Positions 1,223 to 30,796 of a DNA stretch of 30,796 nucleotides are shown in pieces. The first letter of the stretch is position 1. Every line of letters begins with the position of its first letter. A program made the translations under genes and the position numbers. This stretch comes from a virus. Where the stretch lies: positions 1 through 30,796 of the IMG/VR virus record IMGVR_UViG_3300048592_001279; one strand, written 5' to 3'. The notes under the pieces were generated by a model, which ran no database searches, was not told the DNA's origin, and saw only the letters and a program-made list of their open reading frames with translations.

Positions 1223-3679
1223 TCAGGCATTATTTTCGCCGTTTCGAGATTCCTTTCGTATGCTTTCGAGCGATGCTGGATTGATACGGACGACCTTCTG
1301 TGTGCGAACGCCGCCTGGAACAAAGCACTCCGTCTCCTGCACGAGATTCAACTCGCGCAGACCCTGCAGGGCTCGATCCAGGTCCTTCGCAGTCTTGAGG
1401 TGCTGAAAACGCTTCAAAAGGATGTCCGAGCGCGACATGCCGTCGATGATCTTACCTGCCATAACCTGAGCTGCGAATGAGCGAACCGCCGGGTCCCAGT
1501 AGCCCTGCTTGGGCTCGTAGACCTTGCGCACATGGTAGCCTATGTAGCGGCACCAGCTGGCAGCCATACGCACAGAATGAATGGAAATCTGCTTGCTGAA
1601 TTCACTATTTGCGTCGTTGAATTCACCAGCCTCGAAGCAAAAAAGCATGTGAAAGATGATTGAGAGAGAACAGAAAAGACTTACCTGCTTATCCATGTGG
1701 CTACGAAGAGCAGGACGGGCATTGCTGTCACGCCAGGTATTGTGATGGTTTTCCATCCACTGGGCGACAAACGCCTGCGCCTCGGCATCGAAGTGCAGGG
1801 CTTTCTGGTCTTCGGGAACTTCAAGTTCCCAAAGCCGACGAAACACTTCCTCGAAAAGCTTCCAGCCCTCGGGATGAAAAGGAGCGTCATGCCACTTGAA
1901 AGCTCCGATAGGGCGATCGTGCGCAATAATCAGGCCGAATCGGGCAATGAGGCCATCGTTTTGGTCAGTGCCGGCCATGATCTCATCAATGATCTTTTTG
2001 AGCCAATCGGGCTGGGTGCTGCTGACGAACGAGAGAATTGACCAGCCGGAGAACGATCCCTTCTTGCGGTCGACCTTGAAGTCACCACCATTCCAGACCT
2101 CCAAATACAGGGCGCGGGCATCACTGGTGGTGCCCTTGTCAAGACTACGAACAAAACCCGCCAGCTCATCGTTGAACTTGCAAAGACCGTGCGGATTCCG
2201 GGCCAGCAGCTCCATCATTTTTTCCGGGGTCACGTCCTGGACAATCAGAGCCCGGTTTCCCTCCTCAGCAAGTGCATTGAGCCGGGCGACCTTGCCCGCC
2301 AGACGGTCCTGCAGAAAGGAAATGTCGCCACCTTTTTCGATCGCCACGGCCAGCTGCGCCTCAAGCTGACGCTTTTCTATCCGCAGCACGGACTCCTCGG
2401 CCTCGCGCGCCGCAGCCCGCTCCTTGTTTAGGAGCACGAGATCCTTGTCGAGTTGAAACAGCATGGAGAGCGCAGCCTTCAAAATTGCAGTCTTCTTGTC
2501 ACCCGGCGGCGCAACGAGCAGGTACCAGACGCAGGCATAAACACGCCAGGTCATGCCATGGACCTTCGGATAAAGAAAGACCTTCGACCCTATCACTGCC
2601 GAGAGGCCGGCGATGACCGCTGCGGCTATCGCGTCGACGGGCGCCTGAAGGTCATCCGCGAGGTACTCAATGCGGTAGCGGATAGACCAGTGGAGCATCT
2701 CTTCGGGATCGAAGTAAGGGATGCGCTCGAATCCATTCCAGGACGCTTTAGGGGTGCCCCAGGCAATGAGAACGTCAAGGGTGGCATCAACCATCTTCCG
2801 GAAAGCTTCTGCCGTTCCACCGGCCTTTAGCCAGTCTCTGAAGTCAAAGCCATCCTGTCCGCCAAGGTCCACAATCTTGAGGCCGAGACAAACGGGACGG
2901 AGCGATTCCACAATGGCATTGGCGTACTTTGCGCCGTTGTCATCACAATCGGGAACAATCACAACATGACGCCCCCGAAAGTAGCTCTCGTAATCCTTGT
3001 GCCAGCTATTGCAGCTGCCGGTAGTCGTTCCGGGAAAACCATGGCGATGCGCAGCCTCCACATCACCTTCACCCTCAAAAATGAAGACCTCGCTGGAATC
3101 CTTGCAGGCATTCCAAAGGTACGGCTGGGGGCGTGGGTGCCCGCCTGGCTTCCGGTTCACCCAACGACCACCTGAAGAAAAAATCGTCGGGAGCTGTTTG
3201 CGTTGCAAAGGATCGTTAGGATGCAGTCGGAAGACGCGCTTATTGGGACTCCCGTCATCATTGAACCAGCCATGTTCGTCGGTGCAGCGGAAACTCTTCC
3301 AGGACTGGTAGTAGCGGCGGGCATCTTCGATGGAGTCGAACCAGATGGGTTCCTCCTTGGAACCGCTCTTCTCCTTGGCCTGCTTTTTTTTCGGCGCAGG
3401 CTCTGCAAGGCTCACTCCGGCATACTGTGCCAGGTCGCGGATGCCTTCCGGGAACGTGAGTCCACGCTGCTCGCAGTAAAAGCGGATCACGCTACGTTTG
3501 GCACCACAGGCGAAGCACTTGAAAAACAAAGCCTCCTTGCAGCTCATGCTTGGGTTTTTGTCCGGGTGGTAGGGGCAAAGGATCGTGTGATGCTTCACGG
3601 CAAGGCCGAGTATCCCGGCAAGTTTTTCTGGTGGCAGCTTCGCCTTTATCTCTTCGATGGTTTCTTCTGGGATCGGCAT
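1223..3679 (-). CDS. primase-helicase (CHC2 zinc finger, TOPRIM, DUF3987)
   Basis: An 818-aa protein with three parts. Residues about 35-58 form a CHC2-type zinc finger (CPYH, then CFAC) as in DnaG-like primases. Residues about 196-290 form a TOPRIM fold with the conserved acid in FEGEGDVEAA and the DxD-like PDCDDNGA, which bind the catalytic metal for primer synthesis. From about residue 330 a DUF3987-type helicase/ATPase follows, with a Walker A-like APPGDKKT at 390-397 and FNDELAGF further on. The Walker A is atypical (GDKKT for GxGKT), as is usual in DUF3987. The C-terminal 80 residues look like a winged helix. Similar fused primase-helicases start replication of plasmids, satellites and phages. 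The ATG at 3679 has GGAG about 12 nt upstream. It is a stand-alone transcription unit with its own terminator. It is a second primase in the window besides the 1054-aa protein. Confidence 0.85.
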   Translation of the reverse strand: MPIPEETIEEIKAKLPPEKLAGILGLAVKHHTILCPYHPDKNPSMSCKEALFFKCFACGAKRSVIRFYCEQRGLTFPEGIRDLAQYAGVSLAEPAPKKKQAKEKSGSKEEPIWFDSIEDARRYYQSWKSFRCTDEHGWFNDDGSPNKRVFRLHPNDPLQRKQLPTIFSSGGRWVNRKPGGHPRPQPYLWNACKDSSEVFIFEGEGDVEAAHRHGFPGTTTGSCNSWHKDYESYFRGRHVVIVPDCDDNGAKYANAIVESLRPVCLGLKIVDLGGQDGFDFRDWLKAGGTAEAFRKMVDATLDVLIAWGTPKASWNGFERIPYFDPEEMLHWSIRYRIEYLADDLQAPVDAIAAAVIAGLSAVIGSKVFLYPKVHGMTWRVYACVWYLLVAPPGDKKTAILKAALSMLFQLDKDLVLLNKERAAAREAEESVLRIEKRQLEAQLAVAIEKGGDISFLQDRLAGKVARLNALAEEGNRALIVQDVTPEKMMELLARNPHGLCKFNDELAGFVRSLDKGTTSDARALYLEVWNGGDFKVDRKKGSFSGWSILSFVSSTQPDWLKKIIDEIMAGTDQNDGLIARFGLIIAHDRPIGAFKWHDAPFHPEGWKLFEEVFRRLWELEVPEDQKALHFDAEAQAFVAQWMENHHNTWRDSNARPALRSHMDKQVSLFCSLSIIFHMLFCFEAGEFNDANSEFSKQISIHSVRMAASWCRYIGYHVRKVYEPKQGYWDPAVRSFAAQVMAGKIIDGMSRSDILLKRFQHLKTAKDLDRALQGLRELNLVQETECFVPGGVRTQKVVRINPASLESIRKESRNGENNA

Positions 3680-16905: not shown

Positions 16906-17061
16906 ATGGCGGGGATAAAATTTGCACTCCGCCAGGCGGGGGTGAGCTCACCTCCAGAGATAGAGGACGCAGAGATCCAGAACCCGGACACCGGATTCTG
17001 GAAAACCGTGGCTGGGGCCTGGTTCTATGCAGCCTCGGATTCTGTCTTTATTGCGGAGTAA
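16906..17061 (+). CDS. 51-aa hypothetical protein
   Basis: An ATG at 16906 with GGGAG six nt upstream opens 51 codons to TAA at 17059. The product starts MAGIKFALRQAGVSSPPEIE and ends in an aromatic segment (TGFWKTVAGAWFYAASDSVF). Good Shine-Dalgarno and sensible composition support a gene. Its 3' end overlaps the 3' end of the convergent 1054-aa gene by 37 nt. No family recognised. It is too short to be seen by usual length filters. Confidence 0.5.
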   Translation: MAGIKFALRQAGVSSPPEIEDAEIQNPDTGFWKTVAGAWFYAASDSVFIAE

Positions 17062-20000
17062 AGTGATCTTCCATTGGTAAGGCGGCGATCACGGAGGGTC
17101 AGCATGCGGGATAGATCGGAAGGCTCGATGAAGCGGATCATGCGCCCGTTGGATTTTCTCCCACCAATACGGAGGCCGAGTCTTCGGAAAATCTTTTGGA
17201 CAAACGTGGTCGCGCAGCGGGGCGGTTGCTCGGGATCAATGATTCCGTCGAACACCGCATTGGCTTTCTGCGCCTGCTCCATAAAGAGGGCAACCACGGC
17301 CTGGCACTCCTTATGCGTAAATTCGCCAACGAAGGTTTTCAGTGAGATCTGAAGCCGCTCGAACACCGCGTTCAGGAATTCCTTTTTTGCGGCCGCGTGG
17401 TAGCGGAGCGATGGATCAAGGGATTGCTTCTCTTCCGCATCGAAGCGCTTCAGGTCGGCATCGCTTCCGAGCAGTGTTTCAAAGAGGGCGACTTTTTTGA
17501 GTCCGCCCTGATCCATGAACGAGACGTTTTCCTCGGTGAGATCGGCGCAAAGGACATGACGGATTTTATAGGCATACATGGCTGCAGCCTCGTTCTCGTC
17601 CGGCATCCAGTGCCGTTTCAGACTTTGATAGTCGCTCTCACTGATCTCCGGCTGGCCCAGGATTCGCCTGAGACGATCCTGCTTCATGCCTTTGGCGATA
17701 TTCATCGTCAGCATGTCGATGGCACTTGCACCTTCCCAGCAGGCTATGTCGAGCATGGAAACCTTGTGTCCCTTCATTTTCAGGATATTCATGGCCAGGA
17801 CAGTAAGGTTCTCACGTGCCTCGATTTCATAGCGATCGGTCGCGTACTTCAGTTCAGAGAAGAGCGTCGGCGACTCCCCAACGCTTTCAAGGTCAATCGA
17901 CGCGCGAAGTCTTTGTTCAGCCCAGCTGCGCGGCGCCAGAGCCAGAAGCCATTCCTCCGCAGTCCGATCGCGGCCGAGCATCTGCATGATGTCGTTCACC
18001 TTGATAATGCCCGTGAAGATTCCAAAGTGCTTCGTGAAATGAGGTGTTGTGATTGAAACACCCGAGGTGATGGCGGGCGAATAGATCAGTACATCGCAGT
18101 CCAGGCACTCGGCGTTTGGATTGTCGTAGAAGCGGCGGATCTTCTCAAGATTGGCCTTGGATGGTTCCCTGTGAATGTTCAAAACCCTTGTCCCGGGCCG
18201 GAGATAGCGAATCGCCCGCTCAATCTCAATGGCTTTTTGCCGGTTATCCGTTGCCAGGAGACAACGCTCGCCATCAGTGGCGGCATCAAGAAGTGCTTTT
18301 CTGACAAAGGATACGGAGTCGGTCACGCCTACCCGCCAGCGTTTCTGCTCGGCCGGTGGATGGCCGATATCAATGAGGGTTATGCTGCGCTCAGGATCGA
18401 TCCGTTTCAACTCACTCACCAGAAAGTCATTGGCGTCGGCATCGGCAATCAGAATGGAACCTGCAGTCTTTATGGAGTTGACGAGGGCCAGGTGGTTGGC
18501 GCGTCGACGCAGGGGATTGCCCAGCGTGGCCACCTGGGGCAGCACCTGGCTGGCTTCATCGAGGCAAAGAAGGTCGAGTTTTTCAAACCAGTTGCGACCG
18601 TTTTCAGCCATGAAGCGCTTGGCTCCCATGGAGTTGATACAGCTAACCATCTGATCGGTGAAATAGGCCCGGAATTTGTCGATATCGCGGTAGTGATCAA
18701 GCTGAAGCCGTCCAGCTGCATCATTGACGACCGACACCCTCGGCAGGATATGGGCTGCACGGCCCGCTCCCCGCATCGCTTTTCGGATCAGAATTTCTGT
18801 TTTTCCGCTCCCCATGGGGGATTTAACGATGACGGTCCTGCCTTTTGCAAGCTCCTCCATCGCGGCCTGGACTGCGTCTTCACCGATGACGAGGTGCCCG
18901 CCTTCGTTTCGTACCGTTTGAAACTGCCGATACTGCTGGACCTTGCCTGGATCAATACCGGCAATGGCCTTGGCCTTGTACTTGCCTGCGATCACGACCG
19001 AGCGGATGGCCTTGAAGATCATGCGATGATCAGCCCGAATGCCGAGAGTCTGGGTGATTCGCTCGCGGAGCGCTTCCTCTGAACTGAGGTGCGGAACCTT
19101 GAGCAGGACGGCCAGTCTTCTGACAATCGCCGGAATCTGCTGCGCGTAGGCGTGGCTGAGAAGGGTCAGTAAAAACTGCTCGCGTTCCCTCGGCGGCCGC
19201 ACAGTGTTGGCAGGATTGAGCAGGGTTTGCCGCAGCTCGTCCAGTCCGAACGAGGTATGAATATCATTGAAGTCAGTCTTTTGCTGACCGATCAGGGGCG
19301 GGACGACGACTTTAAGACCTTCTCCTCGAGTCCGGTTCTGCTGGGCAGCTTCCAAAGCCTTGAACACCCCAGTGTTGCCCTTTGGAGTCCAGTCGTTGTC
19401 GGCCGCGATGATGATTTCGCGTTCGGGATACTTTGAGCGGAAATAGGCACAGACCGGATCAAGGTTGCTTGCGCTATAGGCGAAAACAACAGCCGAGCCA
19501 GTGGCCAGAAAAATGCTGGCGCAGGTGGCGAAACCTTCACCGATGTAAATGACATTGCTCGCTTCCGGGTCCCCGATGACGGAATGAGCACCGACGTACT
19601 GCCCTTCCATCACGGCTGCCGTGAGTTTTTTCGCTCCATCGGCGTAGATGCGCTGCAGGCCAACGTAGTGTCCGTCCCGGTTGAAAAGCGGAAAACAGAT
19701 GAATGGAGTCACGCTTCCGCTGCCTGTGACCTTGCGATCCGAGGTCTGCCGCAGCTCAAAATGATCAAGGATGGGAGCGATGCCTTTTGTGTCGAGATAG
19801 GGAAACCCGGTGCTTTTCTGCGCGGAGTCCCAGCCCTTCTGATAGGCAAGGAACCGTTCCTTGCGCCGCTTGCGCTCGGCTTCTTCGCGGCTGACGTTTC
19901 GCTTCGGAAGCTGCCCACCGTATCCACCAGGCGAACGCGAATACCAATTGCGTGTGACACCGCCGTGTTTGCGAGTGTGGAATGTGATGCTGAGCTGGGG

Positions 20001-20189
20001 GCTGCCGCCCTTGTCCGTGAACTCGCGGACCCACATCGTACAGCGTTTGCTGTACTTCTTATGAGTGGTGGGAAGATCATGGTGCGTGCCGGCCGTCAGA
20101 TCCTTGATCTGATACCAGTCGATCCCGCATGCAGCTGCGAGTTCGGCCAGTTCACTGGCGTGGTCGACAAGCGCAATATGTGCAGCCAT
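17025..20189 (-). CDS. replication initiator-type TOPRIM primase-helicase (N15 RepA-like)
   Basis: A 1054-aa multi-domain protein. Residues about 80-190 resemble the N-terminal part of plasmid/phage primases. Residues 212-310 form a TOPRIM domain: E218 in IYIGEGFATCASI, D264/D266 in IIIAADND, and KTDFNDI. Residues 440-760 form an SF2-like helicase: Walker A SPMGSGKT (457-464), DEAS box LCLDEASQVL (541-550), then ILIADADANDF and the motif VI-like MQMLGRDR (735-742). The layout (primase plus origin-binding-type helicase in one long chain) matches N15 RepA and related plasmid-prophage initiators from memory; the origin of such elements can lie inside the gene. The ATG at 20189 has GGGAG 7 nt upstream. 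Next to parAB it completes a replicon-partition module. Confidence 0.85.
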   Translation of the reverse strand: MAAHIALVDHASELAELAAACGIDWYQIKDLTAGTHHDLPTTHKKYSKRCTMWVREFTDKGGSPQLSITFHTRKHGGVTRNWYSRSPGGYGGQLPKRNVSREEAERKRRKERFLAYQKGWDSAQKSTGFPYLDTKGIAPILDHFELRQTSDRKVTGSGSVTPFICFPLFNRDGHYVGLQRIYADGAKKLTAAVMEGQYVGAHSVIGDPEASNVIYIGEGFATCASIFLATGSAVVFAYSASNLDPVCAYFRSKYPEREIIIAADNDWTPKGNTGVFKALEAAQQNRTRGEGLKVVVPPLIGQQKTDFNDIHTSFGLDELRQTLLNPANTVRPPREREQFLLTLLSHAYAQQIPAIVRRLAVLLKVPHLSSEEALRERITQTLGIRADHRMIFKAIRSVVIAGKYKAKAIAGIDPGKVQQYRQFQTVRNEGGHLVIGEDAVQAAMEELAKGRTVIVKSPMGSGKTEILIRKAMRGAGRAAHILPRVSVVNDAAGRLQLDHYRDIDKFRAYFTDQMVSCINSMGAKRFMAENGRNWFEKLDLLCLDEASQVLPQVATLGNPLRRRANHLALVNSIKTAGSILIADADANDFLVSELKRIDPERSITLIDIGHPPAEQKRWRVGVTDSVSFVRKALLDAATDGERCLLATDNRQKAIEIERAIRYLRPGTRVLNIHREPSKANLEKIRRFYDNPNAECLDCDVLIYSPAITSGVSITTPHFTKHFGIFTGIIKVNDIMQMLGRDRTAEEWLLALAPRSWAEQRLRASIDLESVGESPTLFSELKYATDRYEIEARENLTVLAMNILKMKGHKVSMLDIACWEGASAIDMLTMNIAKGMKQDRLRRILGQPEISESDYQSLKRHWMPDENEAAAMYAYKIRHVLCADLTEENVSFMDQGGLKKVALFETLLGSDADLKRFDAEEKQSLDPSLRYHAAAKKEFLNAVFERLQISLKTFVGEFTHKECQAVVALFMEQAQKANAVFDGIIDPEQPPRCATTFVQKIFRRLGLRIGGRKSNGRMIRFIEPSDLSRMLTLRDRRLTNGRSLYSAIKTESEAA

Positions 20190-20471: not shown

Positions 20472-21335
20472 TTATATCGTGTTCTCAGTTGGGACACCGT
20501 GTCCCATGTCTTCGTTCGTGATCACCAAGAGATTCATTTCGCGGACAAAGTTCAGAATTGCTTCCTGCTCCCTCTTGGAGAGTTGCTTGGATTTAATGTA
20601 CTCACCAACGGAATCTGATGTGAGCTTTGTGGCCTTAGTTGGCTTAGCCTCAGCTCCCTTGCGTTCAGGACTTGCAATCTTCTGCAGCGCTACTAGAACT
20701 TCCGAGTCATCAATCTTCCTGGCAGCGATTGCAAACAGATTCTTAAGAGTAAATTTTCCGGCATTTGCTCTGACAAATGCTTTGGCTTCTGCAGGCCAAT
20801 TGTCGATCTTAACGAGCCGCTCTATATACTTTCTTTCCTTGCCAAGCAATTCGGCAAGTCTGGTTGCAGTATACTTCTCCGCTTTCTTTATATCGTTGAT
20901 CGCAGACGCAAGCTCTAAGGGCTGCAAATTTTGGCGAGCGACGTTCTCCATCAACTGAGCCAGCTTCTGAACCGGTCGATCTTCTAAATTGCGATAGACA
21001 ACCTTAACGCTCTCTTTGCCCAAAGTGCGCAAAGCCTCAATTCTGCGATGCCCCCCAAGACATAAGATCTTCCCTTGATCGAGGTCGACAGTAACGACAG
21101 GCAATTGGAGCAAGCCAACTTCCTTGATACTTTCAACCAGCTGTTTAAATTCAGGATCGTTATGGTCAATCGCGTCTCGAATATTTTGATCGAGGGTTAT
21201 ATGTTTGATGGCCATTTCCAGGCTCACGCCATCCTGGGATTTAGACAGCTTGAAAAGACCTTCTTTGAATTTGATATCAGCTTCGGTTTCTTCAAATCTG
21301 GTTGATGCCTTACTCAAAACTGATCTCCACCTCAT
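20472..21335 (-). CDS. parB: ParB partition protein (centromere-binding, CTPase-type)
   Basis: A protein of up to 287 aa. The N-domain has the C-box LCLGGHRRIEAL (GGHRR at 94-98, for the usual GERR) and ENVARQNLQPLE (130-141) for ENxxRxxL. An HTH follows (TATRLAELLGKERKYIERLV, about 156-175), then a linker and C-terminal dimer region. It loads on parS and forms the partition complex with ParA. The start is ambiguous: ATG at 21335 overlaps the end of parA, but a TTG at 21317 has GGTGGAG 7 nt upstream and may be the real one. The third parS-like palindrome lies inside the last codons and encodes MGHGVPT. Confidence 0.88.
   Translation of the reverse strand: MRWRSVLSKASTRFEETEADIKFKEGLFKLSKSQDGVSLEMAIKHITLDQNIRDAIDHNDPEFKQLVESIKEVGLLQLPVVTVDLDQGKILCLGGHRRIEALRTLGKESVKVVYRNLEDRPVQKLAQLMENVARQNLQPLELASAINDIKKAEKYTATRLAELLGKERKYIERLVKIDNWPAEAKAFVRANAGKFTLKNLFAIAARKIDDSEVLVALQKIASPERKGAEAKPTKATKLTSDSVGEYIKSKQLSKREQEAILNFVREMNLLVITNEDMGHGVPTENTI
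20490..20506. promoter_or_regulatory. parS-like centromere site 3 (inside parB)
   Basis: TGGGACACCGTGTCCCA, 36 bp from site 2 and within the 3' coding end of parB. Spacing of 36-37 bp over three copies is about 3.5 helical turns. Confidence 0.82.
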
Positions 21336-22191
21336 TCGGGTTTACTTCATGAGTAGCCAATTCCTCGAAGTCTTTCGTCGGAATTTCGAGCGCTTTAGGT
21401 CTTCCTCTACGAGGCTTCAACTCAGTCAGCAAAGTGTTAACGAGCGTGATATAGGCCTCGGTTACAGGAAGATCGGCGCGGTAATGGATAAGAGGTTTCT
21501 TGTTCGCAGATGCGGCGGCTACAGCATCAGAGTCTGGGATCTTACCCAAGATGGGATAGCCATGCTTTTCACAGAACGAATTGATCTTTCCGCGAAACAG
21601 CTTATGAGTGCCACTTTTCTCTTTGTTCTTAGTAATCACCATGCCTAAGAAGCCCAACATTTTATTGGATTTCTTTTGGATTTTTCGGATAGTTTCAAAC
21701 ATCATCCCGACGCCGTCGAACGAATCGGCCTCTGGGAAGATGGGAAGCATAAAATAATGTGAGGCATTCAGCGCAATGTAAAACATGAGGTTAATTGCGG
21801 GGTTTGTGTCAATAATTATGTAGTCGTATTGGCTTGTATTGTTTGCTTCAAACCAATCCTTCAGAAGCATCGGTGCCCCTGGATCGATGGTTTTTTCCAT
21901 GTTGATTGTGCTTAACTGGGAGTCGCCAACGACTACATCCAAATTCGCAAACTCAGTTGGGATGATGACATCCTCAAGCGGCCGCTCTTTTATCAACGCA
22001 TCGTAGAGAGTTTTTCCATGCTTCTTGCCTATCATCTTAACGCCAAGATTGGCTGAAGCATTGCCTTGTTCGTCCGCATCAATCAGCAACACTCTATGAC
22101 CACGGGAGGCAAGAATAGCTGCAATATTGATTGCCGCCATCGTTTTGCCGCATCCGCCCTTCTTATTACACAAAGCAAAAATAATAGCCAT
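21310..22191 (-). CDS. parA: ParA partition ATPase
   Basis: A 293-aa deviant Walker ATPase. Residues 10-17 (KKGGCGKT) form the deviant Walker A, LLIDADEQGN (35-44) the A' box and YIIIDTNPA (124-132) the Walker B region. It moves the ParB-parS complex over the nucleoid. No N-terminal HTH, so it is a short, type Ib or chromosomal-like ParA by length. The C-terminal RRGRPK (261-266) is an AT-hook-like motif, unusual for ParA, and may add DNA affinity. The ATG at 22191 has GAGGTG with about 5-nt spacing. parB follows with an overlap, so the two form an operon. Confidence 0.9.
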   Translation of the reverse strand: MAIIFALCNKKGGCGKTMAAINIAAILASRGHRVLLIDADEQGNASANLGVKMIGKKHGKTLYDALIKERPLEDVIIPTEFANLDVVVGDSQLSTINMEKTIDPGAPMLLKDWFEANNTSQYDYIIIDTNPAINLMFYIALNASHYFMLPIFPEADSFDGVGMMFETIRKIQKKSNKMLGFLGMVITKNKEKSGTHKLFRGKINSFCEKHGYPILGKIPDSDAVAAASANKKPLIHYRADLPVTEAYITLVNTLLTELKPRRGRPKALEIPTKDFEELATHEVNPNEVEISFE

Positions 22192-28537: not shown

Positions 28538-29770
28538 TCAGTTATTGCAGCAGATGGCTGTGGCGGTGAGTCTTCCCGATATATTGTTGGTGCTTTCGCC
28601 GCGACACTGCCAACGATTGAACAAAGGCTTTCCGGTGCTTGAGTTGATGGTAAGATCGATGGTCGGTACGTTTAGAAGCAATGGCCTTCCGCTGGAGGCA
28701 AAACAGCTTCCGCCCGTGAGAATGGATGGATCCGTAGTTGTATTGCAGTCTGCAGTAGCAAAGAGCGTCTGCGGATTGGTTCCGCCCACGGAACTTGGGC
28801 CTACGTCCTGCGTTACAGTGCGGCATTCCTTAAATCCAGCAGGTCCCTGTGGTCCAGTCGGTCCAGCGGGTCCCCTTGCTCCCACCATTCCGGTGGGACC
28901 GGTGGGTCCCGTTGCACCTGTGGGTCCAGTTGGTCCCGTCGCTCCGCGATCCCCCTGCGGTCCTTTGATGGAGGAAATTGGAATCCATGTGCCGCCCGCA
29001 CAGTTGATCCTTTGCAACTGATCATCGTACCAGCAGCCATCGCCAGGATCTCCCTTGTCACCCTTCGAGCCTTGAGGTCCCGATGGTCCAGCGGGGCCGG
29101 TATCACCCTTGATTCCCTGCGGTCCTGTTGCACCGGTGTCGCCTTTGAAGCCTTGTGGTCCTGTGGCGCCTGTGGGTCCGGTGTCGCCTCTCGGCCCTTG
29201 TGGTCCTGTTGCGCCTGTGTCTCCTTTGGAGCCTTGAGGACCGGCCGGTCCTGTTGCACCAGTGTCGCCTTTGAATCCTTGCGGTCCGACAGGGCCGGTT
29301 CCTCCGGTATCCCCCTTCGAGCCTTGCGGTCCCGCCGGACCGATGGGGCCGGCATCGCCCTTTGGGCCTTGAAGTCCGATGGGACCTTGCGGACCTGTAT
29401 CACCCTTGTCTCCGCGCAGGCCGCTGCTCGGGCCAACCCAGCGACCGGTTGAGTCGATCGTCAGGGTTTTGCCGACATGGAGTGATCGGACATTGACATC
29501 GACCGGCATGTTCACGTTGCCGCTGGCATTGGAGATGATCACGGAGGCCGGGCAGTCCTCCTTTGACTTGCAGTCGAAAGGCGCTTTTTTATTGATGCGC
29601 AGCGTGAGATCGCCGCCAACTGAATTGTTCGACACGTTGTCGATCAGGTAGGTGTTGGAGAAAATCGGTTGCTCATTGTCAGAGAAGGGCGGGGTGGTGG
29701 TCTGTGCGAATACGCCCACAGTCAGAAATCCAACGACAGAAAGAAAAATCAGACGAATCGAGTTTGTCAT
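28538..29770 (-). CDS. secreted collagen-like (Gly-X-Y) protein inserted in the tail operon
   Basis: A 410-aa protein. Residues 1-23 are a signal peptide ([20 protein letters not shown], cut after VFA). Residues 117-245 are 43 Gly-X-Y triplets and 270-312 about 14 more, separated by a Cys-flanked insert ([17 protein letters not shown]). The N-terminal 90 residues and the C-terminal 98 have many cysteines; the last segment ends AICCNN. Collagen-like repeats form trimeric stalks. Phage tail fibres use them, but those lack Sec signal peptides, so this is more likely an exported surface protein carried as cargo. It starts 4 nt after the sheath C-terminal gene stop and is 79 nt upstream of the tube gene. 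Confidence 0.8.
28835..29422 (-). repeat. tandem DNA repeats encoding Gly-X-Y triplets
   Basis: 9-bp and 27-bp related units (coding for [19 protein letters not shown] and similar) run over 29036-29422 and 28835-28963, with a non-collagen spacer between. Such repeats vary in copy number by slippage, so length may differ between isolates. Confidence 0.75.
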
Positions 29771-29774
29771 CAGC

Positions 29775-30527
29775 TTAGGCTGCTCCTATTCCAGCCAGAT
29801 ATTTTTGGGTGAGAACTTCAGTGAAGGTCATGGTTTCAACAACAGGGGTGGGGGTGACGTCGTAGGTCCAAAAAGCCTTGCCATCGTTGAGGTTCCCCGG
29901 CGTGTTGAAGTCGCCATCCGGGATGCATTTGCCGCCTGCAATTGCTCCGAGACGGGTGAGTTCATCGAGGTAGGCATTGACGCTCGATGCAACTGCAGAA
30001 AAGAGGTTATTTGTAATGCCAGCCGCCACTGCCCAGCGATGAGACGCAATGATAGCTTCCCTTATCGCATCGCGGATCCGCACCTTTTGAATTTGATTGG
30101 TCGCAAGGTTTGTTTGGTCGCCCGTACCACGAGCGCCCCACAGCCGCAGTCCATCCTGGCGAACGAAGGTCGCCACTTGTATGGCGTTCAGCCGCTGGCC
30201 CATGGACTGTGGGTCATCGAGAGCAAACGAGATAGGAACGGATGTGCCGAGTGCTCCCTGGACTTCCTGATTGGAAGGCGATCGCCAGAAATCAATGAGA
30301 GCGAAGATGCCGGCGGCCGTCGCGCTGGATGGGACGCTCACGATCTTGTTGTCTTCGGATACCTTAAGGCGTGGCGACGTAATATAGATGCGTTCATCGC
30401 CGTTGAGCTTTCGGAATTTTTCCGCTTCAGCGAAATCATCCGGGCCATCAAGGCAAACGATGGCACCCAGGCGCTTGCCCATGGATTTAAGCTTTACGGC
30501 GATGGGGTTCGCCACTTCTTCAGCCAT
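29775..30527 (-). CDS. FI: tail sheath protein, C-terminal part (FI-like)
   Basis: A 250-aa protein with the C-terminal two thirds of a P2 FI-type sheath: [30 protein letters not shown], then [15 protein letters not shown] (the conserved GxRxWGxRT-like stretch), [20 protein letters not shown] and the C-terminal [20 protein letters not shown]. The sheath contracts around the tube. The ATG at 30527 has a near-perfect Shine-Dalgarno (GAGGTGATC at 30537-30529). The start overlaps the stop of the N-terminal ORF by 8 nt, so the sheath is made as two chains or the gene is broken; a stop TGA lies just upstream in this frame. Confidence 0.85.
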
Positions 30528-30796
30528 TGATCACCTCAACTGTGGAAGTCGTCTTTTTGTTGCTGGCTACTGCCACGGGTATCGTCAAAGGCGGCACGGC
30601 CGATTGAATTACGGCGGGAAATGCGTAGCCAAATCCTGGTGCAGCCAGGATCTTGGGTTTAAAGCCCGTCAAAGCCTCCGCGTCTTCGAGCTTTTCAATG
30701 GCCGCCATGATATCGGCGTCGGAGTCCGATTGAGCGCGAACCACCACAACCGTTGCATCGGTCTGTTCATAGACTCCGCGAAGTGCCTGGTGGAGG
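30520..30796 (-). CDS. tail sheath protein, N-terminal part, cut by right edge
   Basis: The frame is open from the right edge to TGA at 30520-30522 (92 residues visible). It carries sheath sequence LHQALRGVYEQTDATVVVVR, then AAIEKLEDAEALTGFKPKIL and AAPGFGYAF, which in a whole sheath protein come directly before the segment found at the start of the next ORF. It ends with about 30 residues (AVIQSAVPPLTIPVAVASNK) that are not usual in the family at this point. The arrangement suggests a split sheath gene with translational coupling. The start lies outside the window. Confidence 0.75.
   Translation of the reverse strand, partial: LHQALRGVYEQTDATVVVVRAQSDSDADIMAAIEKLEDAEALTGFKPKILAAPGFGYAFPAVIQSAVPPLTIPVAVASNKKTTSTVEVING
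30528..30537 (-). promoter_or_regulatory. strong Shine-Dalgarno deciding the sheath C-part start
   Basis: GAGGTGATCA on the minus strand (30537-30528) matches the anti-Shine-Dalgarno end of 16S rRNA over about 9 bases, with the ATG at 30527 directly next to it and a GAGG-to-ATG spacing of 6 nt. It lies inside the last codons of the N-part, which supports independent start of the second chain. Confidence 0.6.

Follow-up and report, generated by a model that had tools for sequence, protein, structure and literature searches.

A phage tail sheath probably encoded as two separately initiated chains

Introduction

The sheath of the type VI secretion system (T6SS) is assembled from two chains: TssB supplies the arm together with two strands of the core, and TssC makes up the remainder (PMC5807055). 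The break between TssB and TssC is located in domain 3, together with the TssC N-terminal helices for ClpV, and residues 136-172 of the TssB1 tail are untraced in the structure (PMC5807055). A two-chain sheath has so far been a T6SS trait in the literature searched, which yielded no description of a phage sheath built from two chains. The matches on "two sheath proteins" concerned paralogues or neighbouring subunits, and a match on a Campylobacter phage described three genes for gp18 and other types of split gene.

Here we analyse a linear IMG/VR record of 30,796 bases, a fragment, which is referred to as the window throughout and carries a sheath feature at its right end on the minus strand. 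We propose that the sheath gene has undergone fission, very likely giving two separately started chains that pair as one sheath subunit in the manner of TssB/TssC.

Results

Junction of the two sheath reading frames

The sheath of the window is encoded by two overlapping open reading frames (Table 1). The preliminary description had placed the start of the C-terminal frame 8 nt inside the end of the N-terminal frame, and both coordinates were confirmed on the minus strand. The Shine-Dalgarno sequence that it had matched to the 16S rRNA end proved to be a 9-nt match, GAGGTGATC, which occurs once in the window with either strand counted and whose GAGG is spaced 6 nt from the ATG of the C chain. 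The duplex of GAGGTGATC with GAUCACCUCCUUA of the 16S 3' end has an energy of -11.0 kcal/mol, while all ATGs of the relative L006 average -3.75 and 7.6% of them reach -8. In L006, the N chain likewise overlaps the baseplate gene upstream of it by an 8-nt ATGGCTGA (3520-3527), like the junction of the two sheath chains.

Table 1 Coordinates of the split sheath locus in the window
Feature	Position	Strand	Remarks
N-terminal sheath chain ORF	30520..30796	minus	5' end cut by contig end; 91 aa present out of about 162; TGA stop codon at 30522-30520; complete in L006 (3520-4005, 162 aa)
C-terminal sheath chain, 250 aa	29775..30527	minus	ATG 30527, end 29775; rest of core and C-terminal domain PF17482
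Overlap of N-chain stop and C-chain start, 8 nt, ATGGCTGA	30520..30527	minus	
Shine-Dalgarno of C chain, GAGGTGATC	30529..30537	minus	9 nt complementary to 16S rRNA 3' end
N-chain C-terminal tail, 34 residues past APGFGY	30523..30624	minus	Fast-evolving, predicted disordered

Family membership and predicted fold

Judged by profile matches, the window pair is a member of the phage/pyocin tail sheath family (PF04984 and PF17482, phrog_23), since both halves match. Specifically, the C chain matches the C half of PF04984 (E 2e-9), PF17482 (E 2.4e-11), and positions 216-468 of phrog_23 (E 9e-56), and it maps onto residues 136-382 of the R2 sheath, while the L006 N chain aligns with the beginning of the phrog_23 profile (positions 19-105, E 4e-9). 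The single-polypeptide organisation, which is usual in this family without defining it, is absent from the window and 28 relatives, all of which have two ORFs. Four short PHROG families of unknown function (phrog_11242, phrog_12477, phrog_13288, and phrog_16736) match one sheath half only, and some of them could represent further sheaths that are split or truncated.

The sheath fold was recovered through the intact relative L020, whose AlphaFold2 model (pLDDT 85.5, pTM 0.84) adopts the R2 pyocin sheath fold with a Z score of 33 and an rmsd of 2.6-3.0 over 317-324 residues at about 30% identity. The best fold and sequence matches listed begin with phage and pyocin sheaths and contain no TssB/TssC chain; likewise, no TssB chain is among the matches listed for fold searches with the N chain. 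As placed on the L020 model, the break falls in a core loop between the strand 116-120 and the helix 142-153. At this split loop, the sheaths of the cultured phages Bas97, Murka, and Mica have roughly 100 residues inserted; additions are thus tolerated at the site, which probably lies exposed.

The complete N chain is 153-196 aa long in the relatives. The "about 30 extra residues" of the preliminary description correspond to the 34-residue tail beyond the conserved APGFGY. When the N chain was modelled alone, the core reached a pLDDT of about 85, and the tail stayed under 50 and unstructured. Across the relatives the tail contains 9-42% proline, frequently as the repeats PTPNPTPNP or DPVNPTDPVNP, or consists of other low-complexity sequence such as GGNPSGGNPS. 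A 3-residue indel changes its length between near variants, with the frame and the overlap unchanged.

Distribution and history of the split

Further relatives were gathered by alignment-guided scans and counted as distinct contigs. Besides the window, 28 distinct viral contigs have a sheath split at the equivalent loop, many of them at 52-70% identity to the search queries, and 8 contigs have an intact sheath, either with a long Lys/Glu/Pro-rich insert (L010) or with a short loop (L019-L025). Most relative contigs come from one metagenome series. Closest to the window are L002-L009, which have a near-identical C chain and, in all eight, the same 8-nt overlap and Shine-Dalgarno. The genome contigs that were scanned yielded no relative.

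A C-chain phylogeny was built by maximum likelihood, with an outgroup of seven sheaths from phage records, six of them from named phages and one from a human-gut metagenomic scaffold. The window and the relative contigs form one clade (100/100). Within it, L010 branches as the sister of the window clade (100/99), and L019-L025 fall in a group that also holds L026, L028-L030, and L043 (97/99). Forcing all split sequences into one clade was rejected (AU p = 8.8e-6), and at least three switches between the split and intact states are needed. Fitted to the one ML tree, a reversible model exceeds a fission-only model by 7 log units, and the advantage of a split clade ancestor is about 4. At the junction, the DNA of L010 is homologous to that of the window save for two gaps, one of which is 8 nt (0/2000 shuffles). 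The best-fitting history on these sequence data is one ancient fission followed by two re-fusions, one in L010 and one in L019-L025. The preliminary description had counted intact relatives lacking the Shine-Dalgarno here against a functional split; relatives with an intact ORF do occur (L010 and L019-L025), but their position within the split clade suggests that they re-fused later.

We also considered the intact L010 with its long insert as the ancestral state and set it aside, as the homologous junction DNA, the rooted tree, and the model fits favour re-fusion, though they do not prove it. Because the backbone branches are weakly supported (25-40% bootstrap), about three independent fissions can still be accommodated on the well-supported branches, with L010 and L019-L025 keeping the ancestral single chain. 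This alternative concerns the history only and is compatible with a two-chain sheath; given the poorer fit of the fission-only model and the favoured split ancestor of the ingroup, we regard it as rather unlikely.

Selection on both chains and variation of the junction

Among four lineages close to the window, the C chain shows dS of 0.41-0.94 and dN of about 0.01 (between five sequence variants), and the N-chain core shows dS of 0.40-0.58 and dN of 0.02-0.04 (four complete variants). The N-chain tail has a dN of 0.13-0.18 (three variants of equal length). By these rates, both chains appear to be translated and are under purifying selection within the window clade. Comparison with the sheath genes of related phages, a check proposed in the preliminary description, has recovered the split in 28 further contigs, and these together with the selection on both chains in the window clade support its reading of a functional split rather than a simple frameshift.

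The junction itself differs among relatives. An 8-nt overlap occurs in the window clade, L026, and L030/L033, and a 4-nt overlap in L027 and L032; in L028 and L029 the stop is followed at once by TTG (0 nt), and gaps of 3, 4, 7, 8, or 9 nt separate the ORFs at the other junctions. All three frame relations of the C chain to the N chain (0, +1, and +2) are represented. The strong Shine-Dalgarno stressed in the preliminary description stands for the window but is not universal, with weak C-chain initiation signals in L026 and L028-L030, including the TTG start of L028/L029. In L027/L032, the C-chain start position is occupied by ATA as the sole codon and the N-chain start position by ACG, and the C frame of both contains no ATG, GTG, or TTG ahead of an ATG about 33 codons on. 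The ACG and ATA of L027 (3405-3419, 3920-3940) and of L032 (3378-3392, 3920-3940) each lie 6 nt after the GAGG of a good Shine-Dalgarno.

This variation bears on the alternative that recoding, by frameshift or stop readthrough, fuses both frames into a full-length sheath, as in tail-assembly chaperone genes. Readthrough would indeed fuse the chains in L028/L029, L031, L043, L048-L050, L053, and L055, in which the C-chain ORF lies in the frame of the N-chain ORF, with nothing but the stop codon and 0-3 additional codons in between. However, the junctions vary and all three frames occur, so that no single event fits and a conserved frameshift or readthrough cannot explain the clade, while separate initiation can. 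A programmed frameshift pair of the gpG/gpGT type keeps a constant frame and a slippery site, whereas the clade uses all three frames and the window junction has, by inspection, no slippery heptamer; if the glycine tRNA slipped by +1 at this junction, from GGC to GCT, it would mispair. Moreover, a Shine-Dalgarno and a start codon are present at the junction in the window and most relatives. We therefore consider recoding improbable.

Gene context

Besides the sheath pair, the window encodes tube FII, GpU, GpD, and tape-measure genes (Pfam and PHROGs). The pair lies downstream of the baseplate genes and upstream of the tube gene, the usual place of a sheath. Between the sheath and tube genes, a collagen-repeat protein with a signal-peptide-like N-terminus is encoded at 28538-29770, and L006 has such a gene at the equivalent place. 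The window also carries genes for a RepA-like replication protein (17025-20189), ParB (20472-21335), and ParA (21310-22191), and the nearest proteins to the first are RepA of the phage-plasmids phiHAP-1 (33%) and VP882 (30%). From the RepA-like and ParA/ParB genes, the window virus looks like a phage-plasmid. The sheath of VP882 is a single ORF, unlike that of the window.

The split chains might be accessory, with a separate intact gene supplying the virion sheath, and such a second gene could lie outside the records, which are fragments. Searches with phrog_23 nevertheless found no second sheath in the 13 records searched, none a proven complete genome; in split records of up to 55.6 kb the profile detects the split pair alone, and the pair occupies the usual place. 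We judge this explanation very improbable. That the split reflects faulty sequencing or assembly, or decay of the gene, is scarcely credible: a single base change could create overlapping frames and IMG/VR contigs are uncurated, but 28 other contigs share the split, dS in the near clade reaches 0.94, dN/dS is far below 1 for both chains, two records bear an IMG identifier (2667527381) different from that of the metagenome series, and the remaining tail genes of the window are intact.

Discussion

The conservation of the split, the variability of its junctions, the purifying selection, and the place where the break falls in the modelled fold are established at the level of sequence. The two-chain sheath that we favour would work as follows. 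One mRNA would carry both chains. The N chain would comprise the N-terminal arm, the first half of the core sheet, and a disordered tail, and the C chain the second half of the core and the C-terminal domain. The C chain would be initiated separately, at a codon that lies just past the N-chain end or overlaps it; in the window, its start would be driven by the strong Shine-Dalgarno and probably coupled to N-chain termination. Because each chain supplies part of one core fold, the two would associate one to one as a single sheath subunit, and such two-chain subunits would build a working contractile sheath with the N-chain tail on its outer face. More broadly, we lean towards the view that this phage clade has independently evolved and long kept a heterodimeric contractile sheath analogous to TssB/TssC, with two or more later re-fusions and with a variable, disordered N tail exposed on the outside.

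The clade thus offers split, apparently re-fused, and intact forms of one phage sheath, which makes the function of the two chains, the free chain end at the loop, and the transition from a single chain to two chains directly testable. For annotation pipelines, it advises caution against flagging such split sheath genes as broken.

Among single-chain sheaths, those of the P2 gpFI type (P2, VP882, Wolbachia WO, ZRG1, and AcaML1) have homologous chains and a P2-like tail gene order, but they are encoded by one ORF in the cultured phages inspected. The sheaths of Bas97, Murka, and Mica have an extra domain at the split loop, yet remain a single chain. The R2 pyocin sheath (PA0622; PDB 3J9Q, 3J9R) is the closest solved fold to the intact relative L020; it is also a single chain, and the phage break falls just ahead of its residue 136. 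TssB/TssC (VipA/VipB, IglA/IglB) differ from the window pair, which belongs to a phage tail and to the R2/P2 sheath family by sequence and fold, and the order of secondary-structure elements suggests a phage break one strand beyond theirs. To judge by its two ORFs, the phage pair would resemble them in forming a sheath of two chains, of which the short N-terminal one would supply the arm, part of the core sheet, and a tail.
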